Assembly (NCBI GenBank): GCA_026390595.1
Contig: JAPLFQ010000021.1
Location: forward strand, 1 to 64,000
Direction: 5' to 3'
Origin: Ignavibacteriales bacterium
GTDB lineage: Bacteria > Bacteroidota > Ignavibacteria > UBA10030
Length of the DNA stretch: 64,000 nt
Position 1 is the first letter of the stretch. Every line of letters begins with the position of its first letter. Position numbers and translations under genes: made by a program. The notes below the pieces were generated by a model, which worked only from the letters and a program-made list of their open reading frames with translations, did not search any database and was not told the origin of the DNA. Below are positions 7,307 through 33,593 of the stretch, one piece after another.

Positions 7307-7316
7307 AGGTCTCTGC

Positions 7317-13618: not shown

Positions 13619-14076
13619 GCTTTTTTCGAGATTGAGATTTCGTCACCTTGGACAACAACTCTGTATTCGTCGAGCGGGCGCGGCGGCGGGCCGGCGACGT
13701 TGCGTCCGTTCAGGTCATAGCGCCCGTTATGGCAGGCGCACCAGATCAACCCCATATCCTTCCGATACTGCACTGTGCAGTCCAGGTGTGTACACGTTGC
13801 TGAGAAAGCTCGAAACTCACCATTCGCGTTCCGGACGAGAATCACCGGCTTGTTACCAAATCGGACAATGGCGCCGCTGTCCTTCTCCATCGCGCTCACC
13901 TTGCCGGCTTTCACGCTGGTGACCTCAACCTCAGCCTGTTTGGGAGGATTCAGATATGCCAAAACAGGATAGAGTACCGCCCCAAGCCACGCAACAAGAC
14001 CACCACCCAGAATGTACTTCAGGAAGTTTCTCCTGTCACTCTCGGGCTGACCCGTGGGCGTTGATTCACTCTTCAT
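13615..14076 (-). CDS. Rieske [2Fe-2S] protein
   Basis: 153 residues. The N-terminus has a twin-arginine-like sequence ([14 protein letters not shown]) followed by a hydrophobic anchor, as in Rieske subunits. The two cluster-binding boxes are CTHLDC and CACHNGRYD, with the usual Cys and His ligands. [11 protein letters not shown] segment forms the Pro loop. The protein is the electron-extracting subunit of a quinol oxidase complex with the cytochrome b whose start codon overlaps its stop. The neighbouring 7-haem protein gene lies 58 bp upstream. Confidence 0.95.
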
Positions 14077-15714: not shown

Positions 15715-16581
15715 TTATTGGTAGGCAAAAAGCATAGCGTAAATGATCCATAGGACTATGCTGAATCCCACAGACAACGCCGTCCAGCCGAAGATGCGAA
15801 TCACCCGGATGACGATCGGCGGATAGGGCTCGACGAGGTTTTCATCAAGCTTCCCTGCCTTCACCAACTCTTCGTACTCAGCCGGCTTGTCTTCCTTCAG
15901 ATCTTCCACAGTCATTCGACCCGTGAAGACGACGATATCCATCGGAAATTTCTCCGGTCGCAGATGGGTATTGAAGAAGTGCACAGTGAATATGAAACCC
16001 ACCGCCAGCAGAGCTTCGTCGCTGTGGATTATTGTCGCCACATTCAAGAGCCATCCCGGGAAGACCCTTGTAAAGAGTTCTGGAAACCAGAGGGTGAGAC
16101 CGGTCGACCCGATGACAGCCATTCCCCAGAACACGGCGAAGTAATCGAATTTCTCCCAATACGTCCATCGGCCATATTCGGGCCTTGGACCCTTCCCGAG
16201 GAACCACTTGAAGTTCCCGATCAGATCCTGGAGGTCTTTCTTGTTGAAGAGCATGGAATCGGGTCCCAGAATCAATGCACGCCACGAACCGTAGATCTTG
16301 TTCTTCATCCTGACGATGTCGACGATGTGTGCGATGAAGATGCCGATCATCGCAACAGCAGCGAGACGGTGAATGTATCCTGCAGATTCGAAACCACCAA
16401 AGAGATGAGAGAGAAACGCTGCCCACCCTGTATAGGCAAATTTCAACGTCATGCCGGTCAGAGCGAGGCTAATAAAGCTCACAATCATGATGACATGGAG
16501 AACGCGGTTCAGCCTCTTAAACCGAAGGAACTGGTGCTCCCCTGCGGCCTGCGCAGTTTCAGGTCCGGTCGCCTTATCCAT
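15715..16581 (-). CDS. Di-haem membrane cytochrome b (HydC/FdnI-like)
   Basis: 288 residues with four to five transmembrane helices. His residues in hydrophobic helices (RVLHVIMIV, YIHRLAAVAMIGIFIAHIVDIV, IHSDEALLAVGFIFTVHFFNTHL) are the expected ligands of two b haems, as in the cytochrome b561/hydrogenase b-type family. It is clearly related to the C-terminal domain of the 13-haem fusion protein encoded two genes upstream (shared pattern: RPEYGRWTYWEK versus KPQFGRFSYIEK). I start at ATG 16581; the first 8 bp overlap the 3' end of the 19-haem gene. It likely forms a quinol-oxidising pair with that 19-haem protein. Confidence 0.9.
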   Translation of the reverse strand: MDKATGPETAQAAGEHQFLRFKRLNRVLHVIMIVSFISLALTGMTLKFAYTGWAAFLSHLFGGFESAGYIHRLAAVAMIGIFIAHIVDIVRMKNKIYGSWRALILGPDSMLFNKKDLQDLIGNFKWFLGKGPRPEYGRWTYWEKFDYFAVFWGMAVIGSTGLTLWFPELFTRVFPGWLLNVATIIHSDEALLAVGFIFTVHFFNTHLRPEKFPMDIVVFTGRMTVEDLKEDKPAEYEELVKAGKLDENLVEPYPPIVIRVIRIFGWTALSVGFSIVLWIIYAMLFAYQ

Positions 16582-18590: not shown

Positions 18591-20783
18591 TTACTTTTTT
18601 ACCTCTGGCGGAGTTGTCCCTGCTTTCTCTGATTCAATTTCCTTCGCCAACGCCGCGTTCATTTCGGCGTGACGGATTTGTTCCAACTCTTTCGGATGCT
18701 CCTCTTCCATCTCTTCTTCCGTTATTGTTCCCTTCCAAAACGCGAGATTGATCGGATAGATATCGGGATTGAACATGACGAAGTAGAAATGCCAGACAAT
18801 AATTGACAGGGTCGCGAGCCAGGCTTCATAGTAGTGGACCGCCCGGGCGACGTCCCACCACGTCTTCGTAAGGATGCCGAGGAACGTGTTGTCAAACCAG
18901 AGGATGAACCCGGTCGCTGCCATCACGGCCGTGCCCCAGATCAGCGCCCAGTATTCGCTCTTCTCGATGTAGCTGAATCGTCCGAATTGCGGCTTCACCC
19001 GTGAGATGCCGAGATTGTACTTCAGGACGCCGATGGCGTCCGTCGCATCGTCGAGCGTCGGGAGCAGGTCGCGGATCAATTGCTTTCCACGGGGGACAAA
19101 GAAAACATAGTAGATATGGTACAAGCTCGCAGCCACGAGCACAACGGCGGCAACGCGGTGCAGGATGCCGCGCAGTTCGAACATCAAAGGACTCATGTTG
19201 CGCACGGGCGCGACCCACCATGCATCCGGATATTTAAGCGCGAAACCGGTCAGCACAAGCGTGATGAAACTGGTGAGGAGAGATGCGTGCTGGAGCCGCT
19301 CACTGAGCGACATGCGCAAATACAGCCGGTGTGCTACCGGCGGCCGCGGGATCAGTCCACGCCGGTACATCAACTGACGCTTCGATTTTCTCCTGAAGTC
19401 GAGCACATTGTGGAAGAACATGCCGCCCACGACGACGATGATCAGAACGATGTAGGTCGTCGAAACGTAGTAGAGCGCAGAGTCCTGCTTGTCGGTCGCG
19501 ATGATGTGGACTGCACCTTTAGTGAAGTTCTCGTTCGCTCCGGGATGGCACGATCCACACGTCTTGATAAGATTGGCTTTGCTAATACGGGAAGTTGGAT
19601 CGCTGGACGGTTTGATATCATGCACGCCATGACAGCTGGCGCAGTTCGCGACCTGAACAGACCCCGCAGTACCTGCAAGCCCGTGATAGCTGTCGGCGAA
19701 ACTCTTGAACCGATCGTTTGCGAGCCCGTACTTCTGGTTGAGTTTCACCGAACTGTGGCACGGCGAACAGACCTGACTCGAAACGTTCGCAGCCGCGACG
19801 GGAGAACGAGGATCGGTTGTTTTGAGAATGTTGTGTTCACCATGGCAGTCCGTACACACAGGCGCCGAGTTGACGCCATTCTTGACTGCCATTCCATGAA
19901 CGCTTGACTCAAACGCCTTTGCCACCTCGGCGTGGCACTGCGCACAGGTCTGAGGAATCCTCGCCTTGGCAACGCGTGAAGTCGGGTCCGATCCCTTCTT
20001 CATCTCATGGCTGCCGTGACAATCCACGCAGTTTGCAGCTTTTCCGTTTCCACGCTGAAGCGCTGAACCATGGACGCTCGCATCGTATGCGGAGATGAAA
20101 CCCGCCGTCGGAGACATCCTTGCCTTCACGTTCGGATCATCCAGGTGACAGGAAAGGCAGAGTTTGTCCTGGGCAATCTTGAGCTGCGTCGTGTCCTGAG
20201 CCGCTGTCACGTGCACGATGGGATTCTTGTGGCAATCGATGCACGTTGGAGCGCCCTGAATACCCAATGCCTGGGCATGAGCATGTGACGACCGCAAGAA
20301 GGTCTGCTTCACCTCATTGTGGCACGATCCGCAGAACTCAGTCAACTTCGCGGAGTGAAATTTCGAGTCGGGAGATTTTGGAGAGTGAACGTCGTGAGTA
20401 CCGTGGCAATCTGTGCATGAACCTGAACCGGCCCCCTTGCCCCCTGCAGTGAGATTCATTTGAGGATGGAACTGGTGCTTCAGCGGAGCATCCTTGTGGC
20501 ACGTGAGGCACTTAACCGGCTCTATTTTCTCTTTGTGCGGAACGTTCTGAGCATCGAATCCGGAGTGGCATGCAACACACACCAACTTGCGGTGCGTCGA
20601 CTTGTCGAGTGTGCCTCCGTTGACGAACAGAGAAACTTGCTTCCCTTTCCGCTCCATCGCCAACGATGAGTCGCTGTGACAAGCGAGACAGTCTTCTTTC
20701 GTCTGTGCCGCAGCACTCGTGGCTGCAAGGCCAATCACGACCAACCAGAAAAAAGCCCGAAGAATGTTGAAATGGGTTCCCAT
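18591..20783 (-). CDS. 13-haem cytochrome c fused to a membrane cytochrome b (CbcL-like architecture)
   Basis: About 730 residues. A signal peptide (FFWLVVIGLAATSAAAQ) is followed by thirteen CXXCH motifs in roughly the first 430 residues (CLACH to CGSCH). Then come a transmembrane helix and a cytochrome b561/HydC-like domain with membrane His residues (ILHRVAAVVLVAASLYHIYYVFF, AVHYYEAWLATLSIIVWHFYF). Fusion of a multihaem domain to a di-haem b domain is the architecture of Geobacter CbcL, a quinol oxidase for low-potential extracellular acceptors; CbcL has fewer c haems. I start at ATG 20783; an in-frame GTG at 20819 is possible. It is the first gene of the run, with a sigma-54 promoter 70 bp upstream. 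Confidence 0.9.
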   Translation of the reverse strand: MGTHFNILRAFFWLVVIGLAATSAAAQTKEDCLACHSDSSLAMERKGKQVSLFVNGGTLDKSTHRKLVCVACHSGFDAQNVPHKEKIEPVKCLTCHKDAPLKHQFHPQMNLTAGGKGAGSGSCTDCHGTHDVHSPKSPDSKFHSAKLTEFCGSCHNEVKQTFLRSSHAHAQALGIQGAPTCIDCHKNPIVHVTAAQDTTQLKIAQDKLCLSCHLDDPNVKARMSPTAGFISAYDASVHGSALQRGNGKAANCVDCHGSHEMKKGSDPTSRVAKARIPQTCAQCHAEVAKAFESSVHGMAVKNGVNSAPVCTDCHGEHNILKTTDPRSPVAAANVSSQVCSPCHSSVKLNQKYGLANDRFKSFADSYHGLAGTAGSVQVANCASCHGVHDIKPSSDPTSRISKANLIKTCGSCHPGANENFTKGAVHIIATDKQDSALYYVSTTYIVLIIVVVGGMFFHNVLDFRRKSKRQLMYRRGLIPRPPVAHRLYLRMSLSERLQHASLLTSFITLVLTGFALKYPDAWWVAPVRNMSPLMFELRGILHRVAAVVLVAASLYHIYYVFFVPRGKQLIRDLLPTLDDATDAIGVLKYNLGISRVKPQFGRFSYIEKSEYWALIWGTAVMAATGFILWFDNTFLGILTKTWWDVARAVHYYEAWLATLSIIVWHFYFVMFNPDIYPINLAFWKGTITEEEMEEEHPKELEQIRHAEMNAALAKEIESEKAGTTPPEVKK

Positions 20784-20852
20784 TTTCTTGGATCTTCTAA
20801 CTGCTGAATTTATCAACACTTGAGAAAAGCATATATATTCAACTGAAAACTC

Positions 20853-20868
20853 GCAACTCTCGTGCCAG
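20853..20868 (-). promoter_or_regulatory. Sigma-54 promoter of the multihaem operon
   Basis: On the minus strand the sequence reads CTGGCACGAGAGTTGC, matching the sigma-54 consensus YTGGCACG-N4-TTGC exactly with correct -24/-12 spacing. The predicted start of transcription is near 20841, about 58 bases before ATG 20783. An inverted repeat, a candidate activator site, lies about 100 bp upstream. Confidence 0.82.
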
Positions 20869-20938
20869 CAATGACAATTTGGAAGAAGTCAAAAACCTTA
20901 ACAAATAGCAACATACGCGATCAATATGAGTTGGCCCA

Positions 20939-20954
20939 TTCTCCCGGGCGAGAA
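20939..20954. promoter_or_regulatory. Candidate activator-binding dyad
   Basis: TTCTCCCGGGCGAGAA is an inverted repeat (TTCTC / GAGAA with a 6-base centre). It lies about 100 bp upstream of the predicted sigma-54 start site, where NtrC-type activators usually bind. Assignment is by position and symmetry only. Confidence 0.4.
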
Positions 20955-21495
20955 CAAGAATGCGGTGGTTCTCAGATTGGGGAAAGTGAATAAACTCACC
21001 AATCATTGGGATTTCTTGCGCCAACGCTTCCTACAGACGTGCCGGAGCGACCTTCGGTGAATCCATCAAGCGGGAGGAATGAGAGATGAGAGGATCAAAC
21101 TCGGGGGACGTCAAATCCACCTTCCCACCGAGAATCACGAAGAGCTGTTGTTCAGGATACTGTTGCCCCGTACTCCCCTAGCAGGTAGTTGAAATTCAAG
21201 TTTCAAATCCAAAGATGAACCGCCAAGGCCGCCAAGAGCGCCAAATATTTTAAATTTCGGCCGAGGAGAATTTCTCAACAATTCCTTTGCGGTTCTTGGC
21301 GTGCTTCGCGGTTTGTTTTTCAACATCCTGCTAGAGAGCCGGTCGGAAAGTGGCGCCACCAAATCACCGAGCCAAAGGCTCATGCGCCTCTGGCGCATAA
21401 AGACACCAAGGTGTATGAAAACTCAACTTTTCAGCGTCCTTCTTCTTTTGTGATTTAGTGCCTTCGTGGCAAATGACGGGTTTTCAATCGCGCTT

Positions 21496-21855
21496 CTAGT
21501 CGTTCGCTTTTCCCTGGCAGAGCGCACAGCACGGCAGCGTCGGATCACGGAGCAGCGCCTCAGCCGATATCTCTCTGCCACATCGGACGCACAATCCGAA
21601 TTTTCCGCGCGCCATTCGTTCCAGCGCTTCCCTCAGCTGCTGAACTGAGCGTGAAGGTTTGTATGTCAGCAAGTGGGTCTGCAGGATCACCGAGAATACT
21701 TTGTCGGGGGACGGATCGGGTTGGGAAACAACGCTCCTCATGCGGAGCTCGTTCAAGACTTCGACGAGGGTTTGGTGGTAGTTCTGACGCAGGGTGAAAT
21801 CAAGCTGGCGAAGCATGGCAAGCTTGATCCGGCTCAAATCTGCAACGCTTGTCAC
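21496..21855 (-). CDS. DksA/TraR-type zinc-finger protein
   Basis: 119 residues if started at GTG 21855, which is preceded at 8 bp by a strong GGAGGG; longer in-frame starts (up to 21951) would overlap the upstream receiver gene. The C-terminus has the C4 zinc-finger pattern CVRCGREI...LPCCALCQG, and the segment LREALERMARGKFGLCVRCG is typical of DksA/TraR proteins, which bind RNA polymerase in the secondary channel. The N-terminal helical part (LRQLDFTLRQNYHQTLVEVLNELR) would be the coiled coil. It probably modulates transcription; the target genes are unknown. Confidence 0.85.
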   Translation of the reverse strand: MTSVADLSRIKLAMLRQLDFTLRQNYHQTLVEVLNELRMRSVVSQPDPSPDKVFSVILQTHLLTYKPSRSVQQLREALERMARGKFGLCVRCGREISAEALLRDPTLPCCALCQGKAND

Positions 21856-21916
21856 GGTGCCTGCCCTCCTTCCAGAGAGTTGAGGAGGCAACAGCGAAAA
21901 GCGCGAATCCGTCCAC

Positions 21917-22357
21917 TCAGGACTGTCCGTCGAGAAGCTTGTGAACGGCATCCGCTACGGCGTTGACATCAAACGGCTTGTAGAAAACAAAATCCGCAAG
22001 GTCCTTGATCGTTTCTTCAATCTCCGGGGAAAGCTGACGGTACACACGAAGAAGAACGACAGGAATCTTGAGCTTGCTCGTCCGAAGAACGGTGACCTCT
22101 TTGAGAATGTCGGAAGGGAACGAGAAGAGATCCACCAGCAGCAATGCAGGGGATGCTTTGCCGAGGGCGGTCTTCAGATTGTCAAGCTGCGTCTCGCATG
22201 CAATCTCATACTTGTCTTCCAGCAAGAGTGAAAGGCTCTTCGCCAGCGCGGCGTCAGGACTGAAAACCAGAACCTTCTTCTGTGCTTCACGCTGCAAGAG
22301 GCCCTCCCGAAAGGTACTCTCCGCTGGAATTGTTCTCATGGCGACCATCGATCTCAC
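21917..22357 (-). CDS. Receiver-domain protein
   Basis: Up to 146 residues; the ATG at 22348 is an equally good start. The core is a single response-regulator-like domain: KKVLVFSPDAALAKSLSLLL, the presumed acceptor Asp in LLLVDLFSF, and the conserved Lys in DFVFYKPFD. The first acidic pair is reduced to one Asp (SPD), so phosphorylation may be weak. There is no output domain. It is followed on the same strand by the DksA-like gene, and the pair could be one regulatory unit. Confidence 0.75.
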   Translation of the reverse strand: MRSMVAMRTIPAESTFREGLLQREAQKKVLVFSPDAALAKSLSLLLEDKYEIACETQLDNLKTALGKASPALLLVDLFSFPSDILKEVTVLRTSKLKIPVVLLRVYRQLSPEIEETIKDLADFVFYKPFDVNAVADAVHKLLDGQS

Positions 22358-22661
22358 TTTCTCTGAGTAAACCGCTCAAGATGTATGCCACCTTGATTCC
22401 GTTGAGATTTTCATCGCCGACAGACTGTAAGTACCCAGCCTGCGTTGTTTTATGGCTTTGAGAGTTGCTTGCTGTCAACTGTTTTCCCGAATTCCAATAA
22501 CTGCTTTCTCAATTTCTCAAAAGAAGAAATCCCACGAGAAAGCCTGCCGTCAAGTGGTTTCCCCGCCTGCAAGAACTCGTGGGCTGAGAGTAAATACAAA
22601 GGCAGGGTTCCCAGACGCTTATGGTATCCGCCTGAGAACTCCTGCCTAATGAACCGATTGA
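22358..22661. other. Intergenic region, about 300 bp
   Basis: This lies between the secreted cytochrome copy 1 (upstream on the minus strand) and the receiver gene. It should hold the receiver gene's promoter. I see no hairpin terminator, RNA gene or repeat in it. Confidence 0.4.
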
Positions 22662-24920
22662 TTACTTCAACAATGTCATTTTCTTCGTCGCAGTGAATCC
22701 TTCTGCCTGCAGATGGTAGAAGTATGCACCGCTGGCGACTGAGCGACCATCATCGGTCTTGCCGTTCCAGGTAACACGGTAGTTGCCTGCCGACATCGTC
22801 AGATTGACGACGGTGGCAACCACGTCTCCGGACAGACCATAGATAACGATCTTCACAGGCGTCTGCTTCGGCACCGAGAATGCGATTTCGGTAGACGGAT
22901 TGAACGGGTTCGGATAGTTCTGATTCAGCGCGAACACTGTCGGAATTCCGCTCCCGGTCTCGACGCTGGTGACAACACTGACAGCGGCGTATCCGCTTTC
23001 GTTGCCGGCCTGGTCGATTGCAGAGATCTTGTAGTAGTACGCAACGCCGCTCTGGGAAACTGCGTCCCGATACAGAGGCGTTGTGACCTTCGCCACCGGA
23101 GCTGTGCCGGCCGGATCGAAGTTCGGTGTCGTTCCGCGATACACTGCATATGCTGCGATATCGCTCTCCTCGTTCGCCTTCCACTGGAGGTTGACCACGT
23201 TGTTCAGGAACGAGGCGGTCGTCCCTGCCGGAGATGCCGGGGCGATGTTGTCCACGGAGTATCCGCTGTCGGGCTGAGTTGCGAATGCCACGGTATTCGC
23301 TGCCGTATATCCGGCGATGTAGAATGTCGTCCAGCGCTGGCCGGAAGTCTTCGTTGAGTCAAAGATCGTCGGAGCCACGTACGAGTACTGCTGCATTGCA
23401 GACGCAGGGACTGAGCCGACATACGTCCAAACGGTTCCAGCCATAAGGGCCGATCCACCGACCGCTGTCGTTTGCATCAGCTCCGTGAAGTTTCCGACCT
23501 TCTTGATTGAATTCAGGCTCGGGAGCATCGGGTCTTTTCTGAAGACGCCGTACGTGACAACCTTGTTATAGCTGTACATCTCAGCCGGGAAGGCGGTCCA
23601 AACAACCTGGACCTTCTTGCCGTTGTCAACCGGCACGTCCTTGATCGAGGAGATTGAGGATGCTCCGGCGCCGAGTTTCACCTGCTCCAGTGAAGAAGTG
23701 AGCAGTCCCTTTGCGTAGTTGTAGTTGTGAACTCCGCCGCTGCCGTCGTTACGCACGAACTGCAGATTGTAGGCCGCCGCGCGCTCGACAACTGAAAGCT
23801 TGCGCTTCGACGTCACCGGCATCTTTGAGTTGTTCTGCCACGTGATTGTGTCGGTAAAGAGAATTGGCGTGCCGGTTGGATTGATCGTGCTGATGATCGT
23901 ATCCCGTTTCGGCAGTGCTGCATACAATGCTGCCAGCAACTTGTCTGTCTTCCCCTTCGTCAATTCCACAAACTCGATCGAGGCCTCGCCATGGCATTCT
24001 TCGCATCCGGTAGGATTGAGAATGGTCTTGGTGACGCCGCCGACGGTGTTATCATATGCAACTCTGAACGTGTGCCCGCCCATTTTCGTCATCATGGTAT
24101 CGGGCTTGGTGAAGTTTGATGCCGCGGAGGCCAGGAATGACGGCGAACTGGCCATATGACACACCGCGCAACGTTCTTTGATATCGCTATGGGAGGAATT
24201 CTCATACATATAGCCCGGCAGCTCCCATCCACCCCACGTGCCGACCGCAGCGCTGTTCTGCTGGACTGATCCGGATGGGGCCAAGAGGTATGCGTTCGCA
24301 ACGTCCATGGTGAACGGAGCGGTGTTGGTTCCCATCAGCATTGTTCCCTGATGTGCAGTGTGTAAGCCGCGGGTGCTCATGCGTGTGATGTGGCAACCGA
24401 TACAGACATCGCCGACGGTCTTCGCACGAAGCTGTTTCTCATTTGATCCGTCATGCGGATCATGGCAGGTGGCGCAACCGACTGGCATCGGGTCATTGTA
24501 CACCAGCAGACCTGTCGTTGCCGGGACCGGCTGGGCTTTTCCACCGATAACTTCATTGACATATCCTTGTGACGTATGGCAGCGTGCGCATACGGGGCGG
24601 GATGTGTATTGAGGCTGACGCTCGGTTTCGGTTGTGGAAATTGCGTGAGCGGATGCGCTCCACGCATAACCGATGCCGTGCCGATCGCTCGAGAAGTGAC
24701 ACGGTGCGCAAACTTCAGACGACAGCGTCTCATCAAGCTTGTTGTTGCCCGCGACCGGCATGCCTGCGACGTGCTGTCCGGCTGGTCCGTGGCAATTTTC
24801 GCACTGGATGCCTGTTCGTGCCATCGATTTGGGGTACTTCGTCACCAACGTGTCGAACACGCCAGGTGCATTCGTCGGAACCGTTGTGAAATTCTCCGCC
24901 TTCGCTACATCATCCATCAT
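22662..24920 (-). CDS. Type IX-secreted multihaem cytochrome, copy 1, C-terminal part (frameshifted)
   Basis: About 752 residues, in a different frame from the N-terminal part that ends at 24910. Seven CXXCH sites are visible (CENCH, CAPCH, CARCH, CATCH, CIGCH, CAVCH, CEECH), then a fibronectin-III-like domain (about residues 570-660) and a C-terminal type IX secretion signal with FALNQNYPNPFNPST and final KKMTLLK. It has no signal peptide of its own, so alone it could not be exported. It opens with MMDDVAKAENF, which continues the sequence of the upstream part after a one-base step forward. An intact relative would be a cell-surface cytochrome, possibly a terminal reductase. Confidence 0.85.
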   Translation of the reverse strand: MMDDVAKAENFTTVPTNAPGVFDTLVTKYPKSMARTGIQCENCHGPAGQHVAGMPVAGNNKLDETLSSEVCAPCHFSSDRHGIGYAWSASAHAISTTETERQPQYTSRPVCARCHTSQGYVNEVIGGKAQPVPATTGLLVYNDPMPVGCATCHDPHDGSNEKQLRAKTVGDVCIGCHITRMSTRGLHTAHQGTMLMGTNTAPFTMDVANAYLLAPSGSVQQNSAAVGTWGGWELPGYMYENSSHSDIKERCAVCHMASSPSFLASAASNFTKPDTMMTKMGGHTFRVAYDNTVGGVTKTILNPTGCEECHGEASIEFVELTKGKTDKLLAALYAALPKRDTIISTINPTGTPILFTDTITWQNNSKMPVTSKRKLSVVERAAAYNLQFVRNDGSGGVHNYNYAKGLLTSSLEQVKLGAGASSISSIKDVPVDNGKKVQVVWTAFPAEMYSYNKVVTYGVFRKDPMLPSLNSIKKVGNFTELMQTTAVGGSALMAGTVWTYVGSVPASAMQQYSYVAPTIFDSTKTSGQRWTTFYIAGYTAANTVAFATQPDSGYSVDNIAPASPAGTTASFLNNVVNLQWKANEESDIAAYAVYRGTTPNFDPAGTAPVAKVTTPLYRDAVSQSGVAYYYKISAIDQAGNESGYAAVSVVTSVETGSGIPTVFALNQNYPNPFNPSTEIAFSVPKQTPVKIVIYGLSGDVVATVVNLTMSAGNYRVTWNGKTDDGRSVASGAYFYHLQAEGFTATKKMTLLK

Positions 24921-25566
24921 TGCCGCTCGTTGTCAATCCATCATACCCAACGGAGTGACACGAGAAGCAGCTGAAGGAAAAGTGTCCACCTGTTTCTGTG
25001 ACTTTCCGCTTCACGGCTGTAGCATGATTCGACTTCGACCATGTTGTGAAATTAGACGGATTGACAAGATGGCATGCGCAACCGGTGGGAACGGCTTGCG
25101 TGGACTGCATCGAGATTCCAGCGCCGATGAACTTGGCGGCGACGATTTTCGTTTGCACCGAAGCGGCAGCACCGAGAGGTGTTGTTGCCGTCATCGTCAC
25201 AGTCCAATCGCCAACCGTGTCAGCAACGAAATACACCACTTTACCGTTGAGTCCAGTTGCCGTGTCCTGAATCGGCTTTGAGACGCCATACGGGCTTGTC
25301 AACGTCCACGTTGCGCTGTTCACAACAACCGTCGTGTCGCTGTATTTGTTTCCCAATCCGGAGAGGGCCTTCGGAGCCAACACAACGCGGCTCCCGACTC
25401 CGACCGACTTGAGGCCTGTCGTTGCCTGGTTCTTGTTTGCTGACTTGAACCTGTCAGGCACACCTACGATATCGATCTTGGCAGTCTGGGTCTGCGCAAG
25501 AACCGGCATGGCCAGAACGAAGATCAGAACAACCAACACTGTAGCGGTGAGTAGAAATCTCTTCAT
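24910..25566 (-). CDS. Type IX-secreted multihaem cytochrome, copy 1, N-terminal part (frameshifted)
   Basis: 218 residues from ATG 25566, preceded by GGGAGG. A signal peptide (MKRFLLTATVLVVLIFVLAMPVLAQ) leads to an Ig-like beta domain (about residues 30-150). Then comes the start of a c554-like haem domain: GCACHLVNPSNF, an unusual C-x-C-H, and SCFSCHSVGYDG. The frame closes with TGA right after SGNDG. The next frame begins 11 bases before that point with sequence that reads on naturally. Losing two T from a GGA-TTT-GAT context would explain the break (inference). Confidence 0.85.
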   Translation of the reverse strand: MKRFLLTATVLVVLIFVLAMPVLAQTQTAKIDIVGVPDRFKSANKNQATTGLKSVGVGSRVVLAPKALSGLGNKYSDTTVVVNSATWTLTSPYGVSKPIQDTATGLNGKVVYFVADTVGDWTVTMTATTPLGAAASVQTKIVAAKFIGAGISMQSTQAVPTGCACHLVNPSNFTTWSKSNHATAVKRKVTETGGHFSFSCFSCHSVGYDGLTTSGNDG

Positions 25567-25625
25567 ACAACCTCCCTCTTGGGTATTCGATTTGAGGTGC
25601 GACACAAAATTCCTTTGTCACTAAG

Positions 25626-25656
25626 CGTTGCCCCGCCCGGCTCGGGCGGGGCAACG
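25626..25656. terminator. Perfect GC-rich hairpin between the tandem cytochromes
   Basis: CGTTGCCCCGCCCG pairs with CGGGCGGGGCAACG around three bases, 14 bp perfect. It lies just after the stop of copy 2 and before copy 1 on the minus strand. No T run follows, so it may reduce read-through or stabilise the upstream mRNA rather than fully terminate. Confidence 0.6.
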
Positions 25657-25665
25657 GTGATCAGA

Positions 25666-27918
25666 TTACTTCAGCAATGTCATTTTCTTCGTCGCGGTGA
25701 ATCCTTCCGCCTGCAGATGGTAGAAGTAGACACCGCTTGCCACGGCACGACCGTCGTCGGTTTTGCCATTCCACGTGACGCGGTAGTTACCGGCTGACAT
25801 CGTCTGGTTCACAACCGTCGCAACAACCTCACCGGACAAGCCATAGATCACGACCTTCACCGCAGTCTGTTTCGGCACCGAGAACGCGATTTCGGTAGAC
25901 GGGTTGAACGGATTCGGATAGTTCTGATTCAGTGCAAACTCCGTCGGAACGCTCTTGCCGTTTTCCACATCGGTCAAGACGCTGACACTTGCATAGCCGC
26001 TTTCGTTGCCGGCGACATCAAGTGCAGAGACTTTGTAATAGTAGGTCACGCCGCTCTGGGAAACCGGATCCTGATAGAGAGGTGTCCGGACCTTCGCCAC
26101 CGGCGTGGTGCCTGCCGGGTTGAAGGTCGCTGTCGTTCCACGATAGATTGCGTACTGGTACACATCACTCTCAACATTCGCTGTCCACTTCAATGTGACA
26201 GCATTTTGTTTGAACGCTGCGTTCAGACCTGAAGGGACCATCGGTGCGAGGTTATCCACCGAGTATCCGCTGTCGGGCTGGCTGGAATACATGACCTGGT
26301 TGTCTTTCGTGTAGCCGGCGACGTAGAACACCGTCCAACGCTGACCAGAGGTCTTCGTAGAATCGAACAACGTCGGAGCAAGGAATGAGTACTGCGCCAT
26401 CCCCGATGCTGGAACTGCGCCTACGTACGACCAGACGCTTCCGCCCATGACAACCTGGCCGCCCTGGCTCGTCGTGCTCATCATTTCCGTGAAGCTGCCA
26501 ACCTTCTTAATAGAGTTCAGACTGGGCAGGATAGGATCTTTTCTCCACACGCCGTAGTTGATTACCTGGCCAAAGCTATACATCTCAGCCGGGAATGCGG
26601 TCCACACAACCTGGACCTTTTTGCCGTTGTCAACCGGTACGTCCTTGATCGAGGAGATTGAGGATGCTCCGGCGCCGAGTTTCACCTGCTCGAGCGAGGA
26701 GGTGAGAAGGCCCTTCGTGTAATTGTAGTTGTGGACGCCACCGCTGCCATCGTTCCGAACGAACTGCAGATTGTAGGCAGCTGCGCGCTCGACAACTGAA
26801 AGCTTGCGCTTCGACGTCACCGGCAGCTTTGAGTTGTTCTGCCACGTGATTGTGTCGGTAAAGAGAATCGGCGTGCCGGTGGGGTTGATATCGCTGACGA
26901 TCGTATCCCGCTTCGGCAGTGCTGCATACAATGCCGCCAGCAACTTGTCCGTCTTCCCCTTTGTCAATTCCACAAACTCGATCGAGGCTTTACCGTGGCA
27001 CTCCTCGCAACCTGTGGGATTGAGGATCGTCGTGGTGACACCGCCGACGGTATTATCATATGCAACTCTGAACGTGTGCCCGCCCATTTTCGTCATCATA
27101 GTATCGGGCTTGGTGAAGTTTGATGCCGCGGAGGCCAGGAATGATGGTGAGCTGGCCATATGACACACCGCGCAACGCTCTTTGATGTCGCTGTGAGAGG
27201 AATTCTCATACATATAACCCGGGAGTTCCCATCCACCCCATGTGCCGACCGCAGCGTCGTTCTGCTGCACTGAACCGGAAGGAGCCTTAAGGTACGCGTT
27301 TGCCACGTCCATCGTGAACGGAGCAGTGTTCGTGCCCATCAACATCGTTCCCTGATGTGCGGTGTGCAGGCCGCGGCTGCTCATGCGTGTGATGTGGCAA
27401 CCGATGCAAACATCGCCGACGGTCTTCGCACGGAGCTGTTTCTCATTTGATCCGTCATGCGGATCATGGCAGGTGGCGCAGCCGACTGGCATCGGGTCAT
27501 TGTACACCAGCAGACCTGTCGTTGCCGGGACCGGCTGGGCTTTTCCACCGATAACTTCATTGACATATCCTTGTGACGTATGGCAGCGTGCGCATACGGG
27601 GCGGGACGTGTATTGAGGCTGACGCTCGGTTTCGGTTGTGGAAATCGCGTGAGCAGATGCGCTCCACGCATAACCGATACCATGCCGGTCGCTCGAGAAG
27701 TGACACGGTGCGCAAACTTCAGACGACAACGTCTCATCAAGCTTGTTGTTCCCGGCTTGCGGGAAGGCCGCGATGTGCTGTCCGGCTGGTCCGTGGCAAT
27801 TTTCGCACTGGATGCCTGTTCGTGCCATCGATTTGGGGTACTTCGTCACCAACGTGTCGAACACGCCAGGTGCATTCGTCGGAACCGTTGTGAAATTCTC
27901 CGCCTTCGCTACATCGTG
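25666..27918 (-). CDS. Type IX-secreted multihaem cytochrome, copy 2, C-terminal part (frameshifted)
   Basis: About 750 residues in the homologous region, beginning HDVAKAENF. Seven CXXCH sites, a fibronectin-III-like domain and a type IX secretion signal (FALNQNYPNPFNPST, ending KKMTLLK) match copy 1 almost residue for residue. The open frame continues upstream to 28125, but that part is only the other frame of the N-terminal coding region. There is no start codon close to the homologous start, so this part depends on the frame break being crossed or repaired. Confidence 0.85.
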   Translation of the reverse strand, partial: HDVAKAENFTTVPTNAPGVFDTLVTKYPKSMARTGIQCENCHGPAGQHIAAFPQAGNNKLDETLSSEVCAPCHFSSDRHGIGYAWSASAHAISTTETERQPQYTSRPVCARCHTSQGYVNEVIGGKAQPVPATTGLLVYNDPMPVGCATCHDPHDGSNEKQLRAKTVGDVCIGCHITRMSSRGLHTAHQGTMLMGTNTAPFTMDVANAYLKAPSGSVQQNDAAVGTWGGWELPGYMYENSSHSDIKERCAVCHMASSPSFLASAASNFTKPDTMMTKMGGHTFRVAYDNTVGGVTTTILNPTGCEECHGKASIEFVELTKGKTDKLLAALYAALPKRDTIVSDINPTGTPILFTDTITWQNNSKLPVTSKRKLSVVERAAAYNLQFVRNDGSGGVHNYNYTKGLLTSSLEQVKLGAGASSISSIKDVPVDNGKKVQVVWTAFPAEMYSFGQVINYGVWRKDPILPSLNSIKKVGSFTEMMSTTSQGGQVVMGGSVWSYVGAVPASGMAQYSFLAPTLFDSTKTSGQRWTVFYVAGYTKDNQVMYSSQPDSGYSVDNLAPMVPSGLNAAFKQNAVTLKWTANVESDVYQYAIYRGTTATFNPAGTTPVAKVRTPLYQDPVSQSGVTYYYKVSALDVAGNESGYASVSVLTDVENGKSVPTEFALNQNYPNPFNPSTEIAFSVPKQTAVKVVIYGLSGEVVATVVNQTMSAGNYRVTWNGKTDDGRAVASGVYFYHLQAEGFTATKKMTLLK

Positions 27919-28484
27919 ACTTTGCGCTTCACGGCTGTAGCATGATTCGTCTTTGACCATGAGGTGAATTGACTGGGGTTCACGAGGTGGCACGCACAAC
28001 CCATCGGGACGTTTTGGTTCGCTGTCATCGAGATTCCGGCGCCGATGAACTTGGCGGCGACGATTTTCGTTTGCACCGAAGCGGCAGCACCGAGAGGTGT
28101 TGTTGCCGTCATCGTCACAGTCCAATCGCCAACCGTGTCAGCAACGAAATACACTACTTTACCGTTGAGGCCCGCTGCAGTGTCCTGAATCGGCTTCGAG
28201 ACGCCATACGGGCTTGTCAACGTCCACGTCGCGCTGTTCACAACAACCAATGTGTCCGTGTATTTGTTTCCCAATCCGGAGAGGGCCTTCGGAGCCAACA
28301 CAACGCGGCTCCCGACTCCGACTGACTTGAGGCCTGTCGTTGCCTGGTTCTTGTTTGCTGACTTGAACCTGTCAGGCACACCTACGATATCGATCTTGGC
28401 AGTCTGAGTCTGTGCAAGGACGGGCACAGCCAGAACGAAGATCAAGACGACGAGGATGGATAAGCCAAGTAGAAATTTCTTCAT
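27909..28484 (-). CDS. Type IX-secreted multihaem cytochrome, copy 2, N-terminal part (frameshifted, haem site deleted)
   Basis: 191 residues from ATG 28484, preceded by GGGAGG. The signal peptide (MKKFLLGLSILVVLIFVLAVPVLAQ) and Ig-like domain are almost identical to copy 1, as is the C-x-C-H site (MGCACHLVNPSQF). The frame ends at KRKVTM-stop. Compared with copy 1, 86 bases are missing at this point, removing the CFSCH haem site and shifting the frame. A sigma-54 promoter lies about 125 bases upstream. Confidence 0.85.
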   Translation of the reverse strand: MKKFLLGLSILVVLIFVLAVPVLAQTQTAKIDIVGVPDRFKSANKNQATTGLKSVGVGSRVVLAPKALSGLGNKYTDTLVVVNSATWTLTSPYGVSKPIQDTAAGLNGKVVYFVADTVGDWTVTMTATTPLGAAASVQTKIVAAKFIGAGISMTANQNVPMGCACHLVNPSQFTSWSKTNHATAVKRKVTM

Positions 28485-28619
28485 GGTACCTCCCTGTGAA
28501 GTATTTTGGAGCTTCGTTGTATTGAGGGGTCTTTCGTTCAACATAACCGTTACATCGTCAATTTCTGTGATTCAGCTCAGCGAGAGCCGGCAAGTCAGTC
28601 ATTCGTATGTTTGGGAACG

Positions 28620-28635
28620 GCAACTCGTGTGCCAA
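28620..28635 (-). promoter_or_regulatory. Sigma-54 promoter of the secreted cytochromes
   Basis: On the minus strand TTGGCACACGAGTTGC fits the sigma-54 consensus (TGGCAC, five bases, TTGC). The predicted start of transcription is near 28608, giving a leader of about 124 bases to ATG 28484. Copy 1 has no such promoter and may be read from this one. Confidence 0.78.
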
Positions 28636-29160
28636 AAACGCGAAAAATCAAAGCATCTTTTTGGGCTGAAATCAAATGAATTTGTCGATCGTATGGCAAC
28701 TTCGGTCACAGATTCCCATCTTTGCTAATGTGAAGCAGTCGTAGTTCCGAATTCTGGAGAAACCCTGATGCCTGGAATTCTTCAAAAAAGCGATCCCGAC
28801 CGGATTGTCCGTTGAAAAGTTCAACAATATCAGCCGGTATTCAGTATCACTGCTGAATGTTTTCAACAAGCGTGCCGACGAATTGTTGCACACCTTAGCC
28901 AATGAAATCCAGCAATTTCAACAGAATTCATCGATTTCCATCCTCCAGACAAAACCTAAATTACTGTTTTTGATTCGATGATCCGTTTGAATTCTTATGG
29001 CAGGAATCGCGAAGGGAGCTCACTGGACTCTGGCAGACGGTGCCTTTGTGGCTTTCCGGGGGCGTACGGGGAGAACAATAAGGTGGTGAACTGAAGTTTG
29101 AGGATCCTGGCCGCGAACCGGCCTGCGGAAAAAAGATGGCCGTGAAGAAGTGAAGCGGGA
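28636..29160. other. Intergenic region upstream of the secreted cytochromes
   Basis: AT-rich DNA holding the possible upstream sites of the sigma-54 promoter. Dyads include TTCTGGAGAA at 28752-28761 and GTTGAA-AAG-TTCAAC at 28811-28825. A 76-codon minus-strand open frame (28672-28902) has no recognisable domain or good ribosome site and is not called. Confidence 0.4.
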
Positions 29161-29610
29161 CTATTCCTTGACCCACTCCTGGGTTGCCTGACGCAGTTTC
29201 TCCATTGCCTGTATGACTGATTCCCCCGCGTCCGATGGGAGAAGGTTGATGATGTCTTCGTGCACAGATACGTACATTGCTTTGAGCTGCGAGCGAGAAG
29301 CGATACCAACTTGGGTCAAACCGATGTCGACGATCCTCCGGTCATTGCCTCCTGCCTCCTTTTTCACCATTCCTTTCTTGAGGAGCCCGTCAATGATGCG
29401 CGTAATGCGGCTGCTGGAAAGACTCATCCTCTTCGCCAAAGCCCCGGCCGAGAGCATTTCGTCCTCTTGCAACGAGCGGAGGAGCTTGAATTCAGCCACC
29501 GTAAGATTGAGCTTTTCCGCGGTGCGTTCGATTTTCAGTTGGCAGTTCTCCAGCAGCTCGTAAGTCAGGTCTGCCATGTGTTCTGCCAGTTCGTTCTTTT
29601 GGACGGCCAT
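29161..29610 (-). CDS. MarR-family transcriptional regulator
   Basis: 149 residues, typical of MarR regulators. The winged helix-turn-helix is visible: LTVAEFKLLRSLQEDEMLSAGALAKRM, then SLSSSRITRIIDGLLKKGMVKK as recognition helix and wing, followed by NDRRIVDIGLTQVG, the classic D-R-R wing. Flanking helices at both ends form the dimer interface. ATG 29610 has AAGAGG upstream; the longer open frame is not supported. The ligand and targets are unknown; it lies between the cytochrome genes and the sigma-54 regulators. Confidence 0.92.
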   Translation of the reverse strand: MAVQKNELAEHMADLTYELLENCQLKIERTAEKLNLTVAEFKLLRSLQEDEMLSAGALAKRMSLSSSRITRIIDGLLKKGMVKKEAGGNDRRIVDIGLTQVGIASRSQLKAMYVSVHEDIINLLPSDAGESVIQAMEKLRQATQEWVKE

Positions 29611-29925
29611 AATTCCTCTTTGGGGACATGGTGGATATTCGCCGGAAGATTCTCGGGCCGACAATCACGGGCTCATACGAATGACGCAAACCGCTCGGGC
29701 ATAGCCATCGTTCCTGCCTGCAGGCGGATCCGCAAGATGGTCTGGCAAAAAAAACGCCCACAGGCAGCAAGGCTCTCATGCGAATGCAAAGCACACCTGT
29801 GGGCAGATTCTTCTTATTGATGTTTCCAAGGGAATTGGCTCTCCTCCCGCGAACGGTATTGCGGGAAAGAGAACACGATTCGCTCTGTAGATCACTCGTT
29901 TCTGAGAGGATTTGAAACCGGGAAC
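29611..29925. other. Intergenic region with MarR promoter and a terminator
   Basis: This 315-bp gap holds the minus-strand terminator described separately and must hold the promoter of the MarR gene. Nothing else recognisable was seen. Confidence 0.4.
29746..29804 (-). terminator. Terminator after the small membrane protein gene
   Basis: GCCCACAGG and CCTGTGGGC form a 9-bp stem with a long (31-base) loop, followed on the minus strand by a run of T (nine A on the plus strand, 29746-29754). It would end transcripts from the fis-like/small membrane protein unit. Confidence 0.65.
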
Positions 29926-30123
29926 TCAGAAAATAAAGTTCACGCCCTCAAATTCGTCCTCAGGCACCTCATGCGGGAATGCTCCAAAATTCTTCAACGC
30001 GCTTTCGTTCTCGACGAAATACGGTCCTTCCCCTTCATCCAGTCCAAGTCGGCGAAGATACAACAACGTTCCCCCAACAGCTAAGGCAGCGAGTATTCCG
30101 GCAACCCACCAGCCCGGTTTCAT
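29926..30123 (-). CDS. Small single-pass membrane protein, unknown function
   Basis: 65 residues from ATG 30123, which has AAGGAG at a good distance. One hydrophobic helix (WWVAGILAALAVGGTLLYL) near the N-terminus is followed by an acidic tail (DEGEGPYFVENE...VPEDEFEGVNFIF). No family recognised. It lies 85 bp downstream of the fis-like gene on the same strand with a terminator after it, so both probably come from the sigma-54 promoter at 30529. Confidence 0.65.
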   Translation of the reverse strand: MKPGWWVAGILAALAVGGTLLYLRRLGLDEGEGPYFVENESALKNFGAFPHEVPEDEFEGVNFIF

Positions 30124-30208
30124 AGACAGTACTCCTTTAACTGCAGCAGCGATGCACCAATAACTTTCCCCCAGCGACCGGTGCATCAATGAAACAAATG
30201 CCAACTTC

Positions 30209-30457
30209 CTAGTTCATCGCGGGATGCATTTCGGCCGCGTGTTCGGCCTCGTGACCTTCTTCGGTATCTTCAATCGAAAGTTCGCGCAGCTTCCTGTACA
30301 ACGATGAGAGACTGATTCCTAACAGCTTTGCAACTTTGCGTTTGTCATTGCCGTTGACGCGCAGCGCATCGATGATCAAGGCACGTTCATATGTGCGGAC
30401 GGATTCTTTCAGATTACCCGCAACTAACCCCTCTTGTTGCATTCTAGCTCGCTCCAT
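30209..30457 (-). CDS. Stand-alone Fis-type (HTH_8) DNA-binding protein
   Basis: 82 residues. The helix-turn-helix segment (about residues 22-60) reads ERALIIDALRVNGNDKRKVAKLLGISLSSLYRKLREL. The last part is very like the C-terminal DNA-binding domain of the NtrC-family activator encoded next door (KEATAQALGVSLSSLYRKMEEL). The protein lacks receiver and AAA+ domains and ends in a Glu/His-rich tail (EEGHEAEHAAEMH). A strong AGGAGG precedes the ATG, and a sigma-54 promoter lies about 70-90 bases upstream. It may compete with or assist the activator at shared sites (inference). Confidence 0.88.
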   Translation of the reverse strand: MERARMQQEGLVAGNLKESVRTYERALIIDALRVNGNDKRKVAKLLGISLSSLYRKLRELSIEDTEEGHEAEHAAEMHPAMN

Positions 30458-30528
30458 TGTTTCCTCCTGGGTTTCAAGTCTGGTAGTAGCTTCGGTGCAG
30501 GGATGTGAAATTATCCCATTTGCGAAAA

Positions 30529-30544
30529 TGCAAGGAACGTGCCA
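30529..30544 (-). promoter_or_regulatory. Sigma-54 promoter of the fis-like gene
   Basis: On the minus strand TGGCACGTTCCTTGCA matches the sigma-54 consensus (TGGCAC, five bases, TTGCA). The predicted start of transcription is near 30518, 61 bases before the fis-like ATG at 30457. The -12 region overlaps TGCGAAAATGCA (30521-30532, plus strand), which resembles the dyad at 30576-30589. Confidence 0.8.
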
Positions 30545-30589: not shown

Positions 30590-30742
30590 AAAATGGCCAT
30601 CACTCTAGGGGAGCGATTTGCCGCTTGCTTACTATTGGGAAGGGGGGAAGAAGGGAATTCTCAAAGATTAGAAAGGAGGAAAAAAAGACGGAAAACTTGT
30701 CAAAAGGCAAGCATTTCTTCCTCAATGGCCGAGGTCTGGAAC

Positions 30743-32110
30743 TCATCGTGTCGGAATTTCGAGTTCCTCCATTTTGCGATAGAGCGATGACAAGCTGACG
30801 CCAAGCGCCTGCGCCGTCGCCTCTTTGTTTCTGTCGTGCTGCGTCAGGACCTGTTCAATGTACGTCCGCTCGAATGCCTTCACCGCATCCCGCAGAGTCT
30901 GATGCCCTCCTGCCGGCATCGCCGCGTGCTGCGAGGTCATCATCCGGAAGTACTCGGGCAGATGCTCAAGACCGATAAATTCCTTGTCACAGAAAATGAC
31001 CGCGCGCTCGAGCACGTTCTCCAGTTCGCGGACCTCGCCCTTCCACTGGTACTGCATCATCGCGCTCATTGCCTCGTTGGAGATCCCCTGGATCGGCCGC
31101 CCCATGTGCTTTCTGAAGGCTTCAAGGAAATGCTGGCACAGGAGCGGGATGTCTTCTTTTCTTTCGGCAAGCGAAGGGAGATCGATCTCCACCACATTCA
31201 ACCGGTAGAACAAATCTTCCCTGAATTTTCCGTTCTCCACTTCCTGGCGAAGGTCCCTGTTTGTCGCCGCGATGATTCGCACATCGGTCGTCATCGGATC
31301 AGTGTACCCGACAGGGATGACCTCCTTCTGTTCAATGGCCCGTAGGAGTTTCACCTGCAGGTGTAACGGGATTTCGCTCACCTCGTCGAGAAACACGCTT
31401 CCACCATCGGCTACTTTGAAGAGTCCCTCTTTGTCCGTCGTCGCTCCCGTGAACGACCCCTTCTTGTGACCGAAGAGTTCGCTCTCGAACAGCGTCTCAA
31501 CGATTGCGCCGCAGTTGATAGCAACGAACCGTTTCGTTTTCCGCCTGCTGTTGTAGTGGAGTGCGCGGGCGACGAGCTCCTTCCCCGTCCCGCTCTTTCC
31601 CGTGATGAGCACCGTCCCGTCGCTTTCGGCCACGGTCCGGATGATCTGGAACACGTTCTTCATGCTCTGGCTCTGACCGATGATCTGGTCGAAATCGTAC
31701 GTCCGGTTAATCTCCTGCCGAAGAAGCGAGTTTTCCAGCGACAGCGCCCTGTGATCAAGCAGCTTGCGGACCCGGTGCAGAATGTCGTCGAAGTCGATCG
31801 GTTTAAGAACGTAGTCGTACGCTCCCTTTCTCAGTGCTGCCACCGCTGTTTCGATCGACGCGAACGCCGTGATCATGATGACAAACGTCTGCGGCGTCCG
31901 CTTGGTGATGTGTTCCAGCAGCTCCATGCCGCGCATCTCGGGCATTTCGATATCGGAGATGACCACATCGAACGGCCGTGCCTCCTGTTTCGCGAGCGCC
32001 TCCTTTCCGTTCGGAGCTTCTTCGACCTGGTATCCTTCCTTCTTCAGAACAAACCCAAGCGATTCGCGGATAATCTGTTCATCATCAACAACAAGTATGC
32101 GCTCTGTCAT
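30743..32110 (-). CDS. NtrC-family sigma-54-dependent response regulator
   Basis: 455 residues in the classic order receiver, AAA+ and Fis-type helix-turn-helix. The receiver has DDE at 9-11, phospho-acceptor Asp53 (VVISDIEMPEM) and Lys103 (VLKPID). The AAA+ domain (about residues 140-370) has Walker A GKSGTGKE, the sigma-54 contact loop as GSFTGA (GAFTGA variant) and Walker B VFLDEVSEI. The C-terminus (NKEATAQALGVSLSSLYRK) binds DNA. It starts 8 bp after the kinase gene, forming a two-component operon, and is the obvious candidate to drive the three sigma-54 promoters in this window (inference). Confidence 0.96.
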   Translation of the reverse strand: MTERILVVDDEQIIRESLGFVLKKEGYQVEEAPNGKEALAKQEARPFDVVISDIEMPEMRGMELLEHITKRTPQTFVIMITAFASIETAVAALRKGAYDYVLKPIDFDDILHRVRKLLDHRALSLENSLLRQEINRTYDFDQIIGQSQSMKNVFQIIRTVAESDGTVLITGKSGTGKELVARALHYNSRRKTKRFVAINCGAIVETLFESELFGHKKGSFTGATTDKEGLFKVADGGSVFLDEVSEIPLHLQVKLLRAIEQKEVIPVGYTDPMTTDVRIIAATNRDLRQEVENGKFREDLFYRLNVVEIDLPSLAERKEDIPLLCQHFLEAFRKHMGRPIQGISNEAMSAMMQYQWKGEVRELENVLERAVIFCDKEFIGLEHLPEYFRMMTSQHAAMPAGGHQTLRDAVKAFERTYIEQVLTQHDRNKEATAQALGVSLSSLYRKMEELEIPTR

Positions 32111-32118
32111 CAGCCCTC

Positions 32119-33528
32119 TTACTCCTCTTTGATCGGTAACTTGATCTTGAACGTACTCCCTTTGCCAAGTTCACTTTCCACTTCGATGTCGCCATTGAAA
32201 CTCTCGACAATCCCGTAGCTGACCCAGAGCCCGAGTCCCGTCCCCTGCCCCACCGTCTTGGTGGTAAAGAACGGCTCGAAGATTTTTTCGCGGTCTCCGG
32301 GATCAATTCCCCGTCCCGTGTCTTTCACCAGCACTTCCGCATGATCCTCATGTGCGCGCGACTGTATCCAGATCGATCCCGGTTTCCCCTCGAGTGAATC
32401 AACCGCGTTCATCAGGATGTTGATGAACACCTGCGCGAGCTGGTCTGGGACAACAGGCAAACTCGGCAGGTCGTCTGCCAGTTCCAGCGTAAACGCGATG
32501 TCTTTCACTTTCTTCCCGTACTGCACGATGTTCAGCGCTTCACGGACAACCTTGTTCAGGTCCGTGGGCTTGATGACGTACGAAGACGGACGCGAGAAAT
32601 CGACAAGGTCGCGGATAATGCGTGCGATCCGGTTGATCTGGTCTTTGATCAGACCAAGCTTGTCCTTTGCGAACTCATCGGCTGTCGTCCGCTGGATCAC
32701 CTGGACCAGCGAAGAGATCGAGGTCAGCGGATTCCCGACCTCGTGCGCGATACCGGCTGCCAGAGTTCCGATGCTTTCCATTTTTTGAGAACGGAACAAC
32801 TGCTGTTCCAATATCCGCTGTTCGGTGATGTCCCTGTGGGCTCCCATGAAGCCTACGATATGGTCGTTGCCATCGACGATCGGCGAAATAACGAGTTCCG
32901 TGTGGAATGGGCTCCCGTCTTTTCGACGATTCTCAAGTTCGCCAACCCATACCTTCCTTTGCACAATGTATTCCCAGACTTTCTTCCAGAATTCCGTCCC
33001 GTGCCTGCCACTGTTCAGGATCCTGGGGTTCCTGCCGATGAGTTCTTCCTTCGAATATCCGCTTGCTGTCTCGAATGCGGGATTGACGTAGACCATCTTC
33101 CCGCTGGCATCGGTGATCTGAATCGGATTGACGGTATGCTGAATGACGTTCGAGAACCTGAGATAATCGAGTTCCCGCTTCTTCTGCTCGGTGATATCTT
33201 TCGCAATAAGGACGGAGTAGAATCTCTCGGCCGAGTAGAGTCTCCGAAGGTCGATCTGGACATCCAATACCGCCTTGTCGGATCTGACAAATTTCGTCTC
33301 GAGCGATTGATCGCCGTAATTTGTCTTCAGGATACTCATGAGCACCCGGCGCTGCTCGGCAGGGAGCAGGAGATCCAACGAGCTATGCAGGAGCTCGTTC
33401 GACGGGTATCCCGTCCCTTCGGCGGCGGCCGTGTTATGGTCCACGATCTTCTGCTCAGCGTCCACGATGAGGATCATCTCGGGCAGAAGGTCGAAAACCC
33501 GGCCATATTTCGAATAATGGACTGTCAT
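32119..33528 (-). CDS. PAS-PAS sensor histidine kinase
   Basis: 469 residues from ATG 33528 (an in-frame TTG lies six codons upstream). Two PAS domains occupy about residues 5-115 and 125-240; the second has the [21 protein letters not shown] signature and the PAC segment [12 protein letters not shown]. The dimerisation box is [16 protein letters not shown] (His near 260). The ATPase domain has the N box ([11 protein letters not shown]) and G boxes [10 protein letters not shown] and [15 protein letters not shown]. No transmembrane helix, so it senses a cytoplasmic signal, possibly redox or a small molecule through PAS. It pairs with the NtrC-type regulator just downstream. Confidence 0.95.
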
Positions 33529-33593
33529 GAGTGTCTTTGGCCTCAAAGGTACTCCAACTTCGCCTCATTGGCAAGGAAAGAGATAGTGGTGAC

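Follow-up and report, generated by a model that had tools for sequence, protein, structure and literature searches.

The stretch of DNA analysed here, called the window throughout, comprises 64,000 nucleotides of contig JAPLFQ010000021.1 from an Ignavibacteriales bacterium (assembly GCA_026390595.1). Its minus strand carries a long run of multihaem cytochrome genes, a small gene that we call fisL, a gene for an NtrC-type response regulator (ntrC), and a gene for a histidine kinase with two PAS domains (Table 1). Three predicted sigma-54 promoters, P1, P2 and P3, stand before the CbcL-like gene that heads the cytochrome run, before a pair of secreted cytochromes, and before fisL, respectively. 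In what follows, which is based on computation on draft assemblies, we describe why these elements are very likely to form one regulon, controlled by sigma-54 and devoted to extracellular electron transfer (EET).

The sequence that identifies a sigma-54 promoter, GG-N10-GC at -24/-12 and close to TGGCAC-N5-TTGC, is present at P1, P2 and P3. The first-pass annotation of this DNA had described three near-consensus promoters on this strand and at these places; all three prove to be exact matches (10/10 positions). They are the only ones in the window, and all are on the minus strand; shuffled versions of the window contain a mean of 0.21, and three were reached in none of 100 shuffles. Transcription is predicted to start at ~20841 (P1), ~28608 (P2) and ~30518 (P3), which would put ~58, ~124 and ~61 nt of leader before the likely ATGs at 20783, 28484 and 30457. 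The genome-wide scan that the annotation had proposed as a check found 16 exact sites in 4.77 Mb, versus 11 for the reversed pattern, and a single match is thus weak evidence. Three of the 16, however, are P1 to P3, which fall inside 9.7 kb on one strand, each preceding a minus-strand gene, at a density ~100-fold above the genome rate. The organism very probably uses sigma-54, since rpoN, whose absence had been named as fatal to the proposal, is present as one gene (C16, 488-aa frame, E 2e-53), and two further exact sites precede flagellar genes, one fliL-like (L015) and one flgB-like (L016). Two other NtrC-family genes of this genome also have an exact site directly behind them (L001, L004); a 121-aa protein that looks secreted follows one of these sites, and a response regulator the other, and they are possible further activator-adjacent circuits.

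Upstream of each of the three promoters is a pair of 16-bp palindromes, TTCTC-N6-GAGAA, which we regard as putative enhancers. The members of a pair are 30–33 bp apart, and lie about 80–130 bp before the -24 element. They were recognized by aligning same-genus genomes around P1 and P3, and a matrix trained on the P1 and P3 sites, with P2 left out, scores the tandem at 33.9 for P1, 28.3 for P3 and 10.9 for P2. An equally good pair at P2 arose in 3 of 1000 shuffles, and the counterparts of P2 in two relatives (G002 and G003) score 17–18. The tandem was not found at any of the remaining 13 exact sigma-54 matches of the genome (scores of -2.5 or below). Combined into one pattern—half enhancer, enhancer, gap, promoter—these elements have just two matches in this genome, P1 and P3, and recur in the five other same-genus genomes and in four further ones; the reversed pattern, as a control, has zero matches among 32 genomes. 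Once the promoter part is dropped, a loose pattern for the tandem enhancer lacks specificity (40 matches versus 21 in the control). The spacing of the enhancers is about three helical turns, and the period that best fits their positions is 10.5 bp (resultant 0.79, calculated from related, and so non-independent, genomes). Another palindrome beside P3, TGCGAA-N2-TTCGCA, was considered as the enhancer and rejected as not common to the other promoters. It is part of an inverted repeat, TTTGCGAAAAT / ATTTTCGCAAA, that flanks P3 (30517–30592), and of which the arm just past the -12 element is largely retained within the genus; this repeat is possibly a second operator.

The promoters and their enhancers are conserved to different degrees. 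The P1 site precedes the orthologous gene in all five same-genus genomes, exactly in four and with one mismatch in the fifth, and the P1 enhancers start at -117 and -87 in every member of the genus. Beyond the genus, the site is exact in G020, G040 and G082, and has one mismatch in several more genomes. Using a sigma-54 score built from approximate consensus frequencies taken from general knowledge, we surveyed 101 loci, a number that includes duplicates of one genome from two collections: 24 scored at least 14 upstream of the P1 gene (~15 distinct genomes lie above this high threshold), versus one on the opposite strand and one inside the gene. All 17 fisL genes have a sigma-54 site upstream, with no mismatch in 15 and one mismatch in two. 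Their enhancers are mostly in register across the 17 genomes, the P3-type positions being mostly -129 and -97, and the order ntrC, promoter, fisL is retained in other genera. At the position of P2, G002, G003 and G004 have a sigma-54 site with two mismatches.

Other families of Ignavibacteria have an element of the form TGGCAC/T-N5-TTGA, with GA instead of GC at -12, and enhancer-like palindromes often lie upstream of this element. The element occurs behind ntrC (L109, L110, L114, L126, L157) and before the CbcL-like gene (L126, L039, L110, L109, L114, L161, L157), and perhaps represents a lineage-specific form of the -12 part of sigma-54 promoters; in the genome of the window it is not clearly enriched (8 versus 5 in the control). 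Families without FisL keep ntrC orthologues (56–62%) near the cytochrome operon, and these often have similar palindromes and TGGCAC-N5-TTGA behind them; this suggests that control of this operon by NtrC predates FisL.

Table 1. Predicted promoters, enhancers and genes of the proposed regulon, in positions of the window
Feature	Position	Strand	Remarks
P1, sigma-54 -24/-12 element TGGCACGAGAGTTGC	20853..20867	-	exact match; heads multihaem/b-c operon
P1 proximal enhancer, palindrome TTCTCCCGGGCGAGAA	20939..20954		-87 from -24 element; sequence and position conserved in genus
P1 distal enhancer TTCTCAGATTGGGGAA	20969..20984		-117; 30 bp from P1 proximal enhancer
P2, sigma-54 element TGGCACACGAGTTGC	28620..28634	-	exact match; precedes T9SS-tailed (type IX secretion system) cytochromes
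P2 proximal enhancer, weak, TTAGCAAAGATGGGAA (minus strand)	28713..28728		-94; at -96/-98 in relatives
P2 distal enhancer, weak, TTCTCCAGAATTCGGA (minus strand)	28746..28761		-127
P3, sigma-54 element TGGCACGTTCCTTGC	30530..30544	-	exact match; precedes fisL
P3 proximal enhancer TTCCCAATAGTAAGCA (minus strand)	30626..30641		-97
P3 distal enhancer TTCTCAAAGATTAGAA	30658..30673		-129
fisL, 82-aa stand-alone Fis/NtrC-type DNA-binding protein (predicted)	30209..30457	-	PF02954, E 1e-12
ntrC, receiver + AAA+ + HTH_8 response regulator, proposed activator	30743..32110	-	PF00072, PF00158, PF02954
Two-PAS histidine kinase, proposed ntrC partner	32119..33546	-	PF00989, PF00512, PF02518
13-haem cytochrome fused to cytochrome b561-type membrane domain, CbcL-like	18591..20819	-	likely start 20783; Pfam, haem motifs
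19-haem cytochrome	16574..18586	-	Pfam, haem motifs
Cytochrome b561-type membrane protein	15715..16695	-	PF01292
NapC/NirT-type multihaem quinol dehydrogenase-like protein	14135..15625	-	PF03264
Rieske protein	13615..14076	-	PF00355
Cytochrome b (bc1/b6f type)	12539..13618	-	PF00033
11-haem cytochrome	11070..12773	-	haem motifs
Cytochrome c554-like	10494..11027	-	PF13435
Possible outer-membrane beta-barrel (conduit porin)	8566..9885	-	weak PF13505, E 3e-4; conserved position between cytochromes
14-haem MtrA-position cytochrome	7317..8555	-	haem motifs
CxxxxCH/CxxCH lipoprotein cytochrome	6221..7400	-	PF09698, TIGR01904; start uncertain
T9SS-tailed multihaem cytochrome, copy 1	22662..25565	-	frameshifted
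T9SS-tailed multihaem cytochrome, copy 2	25666..28484	-	frameshifted

The genes behind P1 look like a path that takes electrons from quinol out to the surface of the cell. The first of them encodes the CbcL-like protein (13 CXXCH motifs and PF01292), matched in 118 of 150 related genomes. The beta-barrel is the weakest assignment of the run: the multihaem cytochromes that flank the presumed conduit are clear, and the barrel itself is proposed from a weak PF13505 match and its position. The CxxxxCH lipoprotein cytochrome is a possible outer-surface partner of the conduit. After it, the minus-strand run reaches CcmF; simple terminator scans within the operon gave results at chance level and so mark no downstream end. 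Between the secreted cytochromes and P1 (21496–22357, minus strand) lie genes for a DksA/TraR-like zinc-finger protein and for a receiver-like protein, in an order conserved in the genus.

The first-pass annotation had also placed nearby an NtrC-family activator with the sigma-54 contact loop, and a PAS kinase. The domains of both are indeed found, and the loop, read from the translation, is GSFTGA, a variant of GAFTGA. The best NCBIfam match of ntrC is AtoC, the score being below the cut-off of every NCBIfam equivalog among the matches listed, and its best PDB matches are of the NtrC family (4l4u and 1ny5). From adjacency alone we infer that the kinase is its partner, and the palindromes are its presumed binding sites. 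In G016, an exact sigma-54 site (L088:11876) precedes the PAS kinase gene itself, which suggests possible autoactivation of the sensor there.

FisL is, by all appearances, a stand-alone copy of the DNA-binding domain of the adjacent NtrC, without the ATPase. The recognition helix SLSSLYRK is confined to these two among the 23 HTH_8 domains of the genome, and the solved relatives of FisL are NtrC-family DNA-binding domains (3e7l, 4fth). Stand-alone FisL occurs in 17 genomes of family f1 (61 searched), and an NtrC domain is encoded just upstream wherever this can be read (14 genomes; the order is also seen in G008). In a tree of 44 HTH_8 domains, in which the fine branching is unsure with only 49 columns, FisL and the neighbouring NtrC domains make one clade (support 98/95), apart from the 21 others of the genome, and FisL forms a single group within the tree (96/83). 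This clade argues against descent from Fis, in a tree that did not include E. coli Fis itself. In fisL, dS exceeds dN more than tenfold, which indicates purifying selection.

From the promoters, their common enhancer, the conservation of both, the presence of rpoN, and the kinship of FisL with the activator—features that can be read from sequence—the following scheme may be drawn. The kinase would sense a signal, perhaps redox, and phosphorylate the NtrC-type activator, which would then bind the two palindromes upstream of each promoter. P1 would drive the operon of CbcL-like, NapC-like, Rieske–cytochrome b, multihaem and possible conduit genes, P2 the T9SS-secreted cytochromes, and P3 fisL. 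FisL, in turn, would occupy the same enhancers and damp the response, a negative feedback.

Several points weigh against this scheme. Some f1-family genomes have no recognizable sigma-54 site before the P1 gene. P2 is less conserved than the other promoters, with CGGCAC-N5-TTGA in its place in G002 and G003, and both genes behind it carry a frameshift in this assembly. The proposed link between activator and enhancers is drawn from proximity, co-conservation and the common recognition helix, and the genome has 21 HTH_8 domains besides those of ntrC and fisL.

The role of FisL is the part of the scheme that is most in the balance. That it competes with the activator for the enhancers we rate at about even, and the fuller proposal, an EET regulon in which the DNA-binding-domain paralogue of the activator sets a ceiling or a pulse by competing for the tandem enhancers, a shade lower. 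The regulon may be real and FisL not a competitor at all, being instead an independent regulator, or a helper that bends DNA or acts as a co-activator, much as IHF or Fis does at sigma-54 promoters. Fis-type proteins bend DNA, and FisL has a C-terminal tail that is absent from the activator. IHF commonly aids RpoN promoters by bending (PMC7962754). A helper would be less expected, however, to have a recognition helix identical to that of the activator and unique to the pair, at promoters that all have one type of enhancer, and to be under the activator's own type of promoter; we consider this alternative rather unlikely.

P2 is the weakest leg of the proposed regulon. The secreted cytochromes that the annotation had placed behind it are present and T9SS-tailed, but as two near-identical copies, each of them frameshifted in the assembly. 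The frameshifts are at about the same place, where copy 2 also lacks ~90 bp, and may be either errors in assembling a repeat or real decay. If decay, P1 and P3 would be the working pair, and P2, with its weak enhancer and with -12 elements that differ in relatives, a vestige. Against this, P2 itself is exact and its enhancers are in register, near-identical tandem copies in a draft assembly invite errors, and the frames are intact in relatives (G001–G004, ~980–1050 aa). The vestige reading is, in our view, somewhat less probable still than that of FisL as a helper.

It is improbable that the promoters depend on sigma-54 while their enhancer is read by another of the ~20 NtrC-family activators of the genome, numerous as its 23 HTH_8 domains make the candidates. 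The P3 enhancer is directly behind ntrC in many genera, orthologues of ntrC accompany the cytochrome operon and similar palindromes in distant families too, and fisL has its recognition helix in common with the adjacent ntrC only. That the matches are due to chance, with the genes using other promoters, is hardly credible: the genome-wide count is barely above its reversed control, but the clustering, strand, conservation and common enhancer of these three, and the lack of this enhancer at the other 13 sites, speak against it.

The regulon resembles known systems in its parts. In Geobacter sulfurreducens, BccR is reportedly a sigma-54 activator of cbcBA. As in the RpoN regulon of that organism (consensus TTGGCACGGTTTTTGCT), sigma-54 promoters and enhancer-binding proteins are tied here to EET cytochromes, and flagellar genes come under the same type of regulon. 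Unlike Geobacter, the organism belongs to another phylum, one conserved activator, enhancer and promoter circuit stands beside a whole inner-membrane-to-surface gene set, and this circuit contains the DNA-binding domain of its activator a second time, as a protein of its own. The involvement of RpoN in cytochrome expression is established in Geobacter (PMC2725144), and the idea of sigma-54 control of cytochromes is thus new for the lineage, not in principle. ntrC has the receiver, AAA+ and HTH_8 architecture of AtoC, ZraR and NtrC1/NtrC4, and differs from them in its GSFTGA loop, distinct recognition helix and own proposed enhancer. Like Fis, FisL is a small stand-alone protein with an NtrC-type helix-turn-helix; unlike Fis, it groups with and adjoins the neighbouring activator, and is predicted to be sigma-54 controlled. 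Fis is itself reported (Morett and Bork) to derive from an NtrC DNA-binding domain. Like CbcL, MtrH and MtoC, the first protein of the P1 operon joins a multihaem N-terminal part to a membrane domain of b type, a likeness of architecture and not of alignment to Geobacter CbcL; as in porin-cytochrome conduits, multihaem cytochromes flank what may be a beta-barrel (here a weak match). What sets the operon apart from these systems is their combination, behind a single sigma-54 promoter, with a Rieske/cytochrome b pair. Reports from Ignavibacteria already include both CbcL-type oxidases and porin-cytochrome clusters (PMC6295460, PMC4245776 and PMC7399161).

The first-pass annotation had called such control undescribed in this lineage, and the literature agrees, provisionally: no open-access paper was found that combines 'Ignavibacteri' with 'sigma-54', nor one that combines Bacteroidetes, sigma-54, NtrC, promoter and RpoN, in a search largely confined to open-access journals. 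Three things appear to be new: the lineage, the enhancer, and the paralogue of the DNA-binding domain that the regulon itself encodes. Anode biofilms and iron-rich sediments commonly harbour Ignavibacteria (PMC7399161). Members of this group are mostly uncultured, and we found no description of how they control the export of electrons. The named activator, enhancer sequence, promoter and set of targets make the proposal open to testing, through DNA-binding assays and reporters, with no need to culture the organism, and also allow the regulon to be predicted in other genomes. If true, this would be a simple design for feedback, in which an enhancer-binding protein is countered by a self-encoded copy of its own DNA-binding domain; the FisL brake would have arisen by duplication of just the DNA-reading domain of the activator, which would parallel the origin proposed for Fis.

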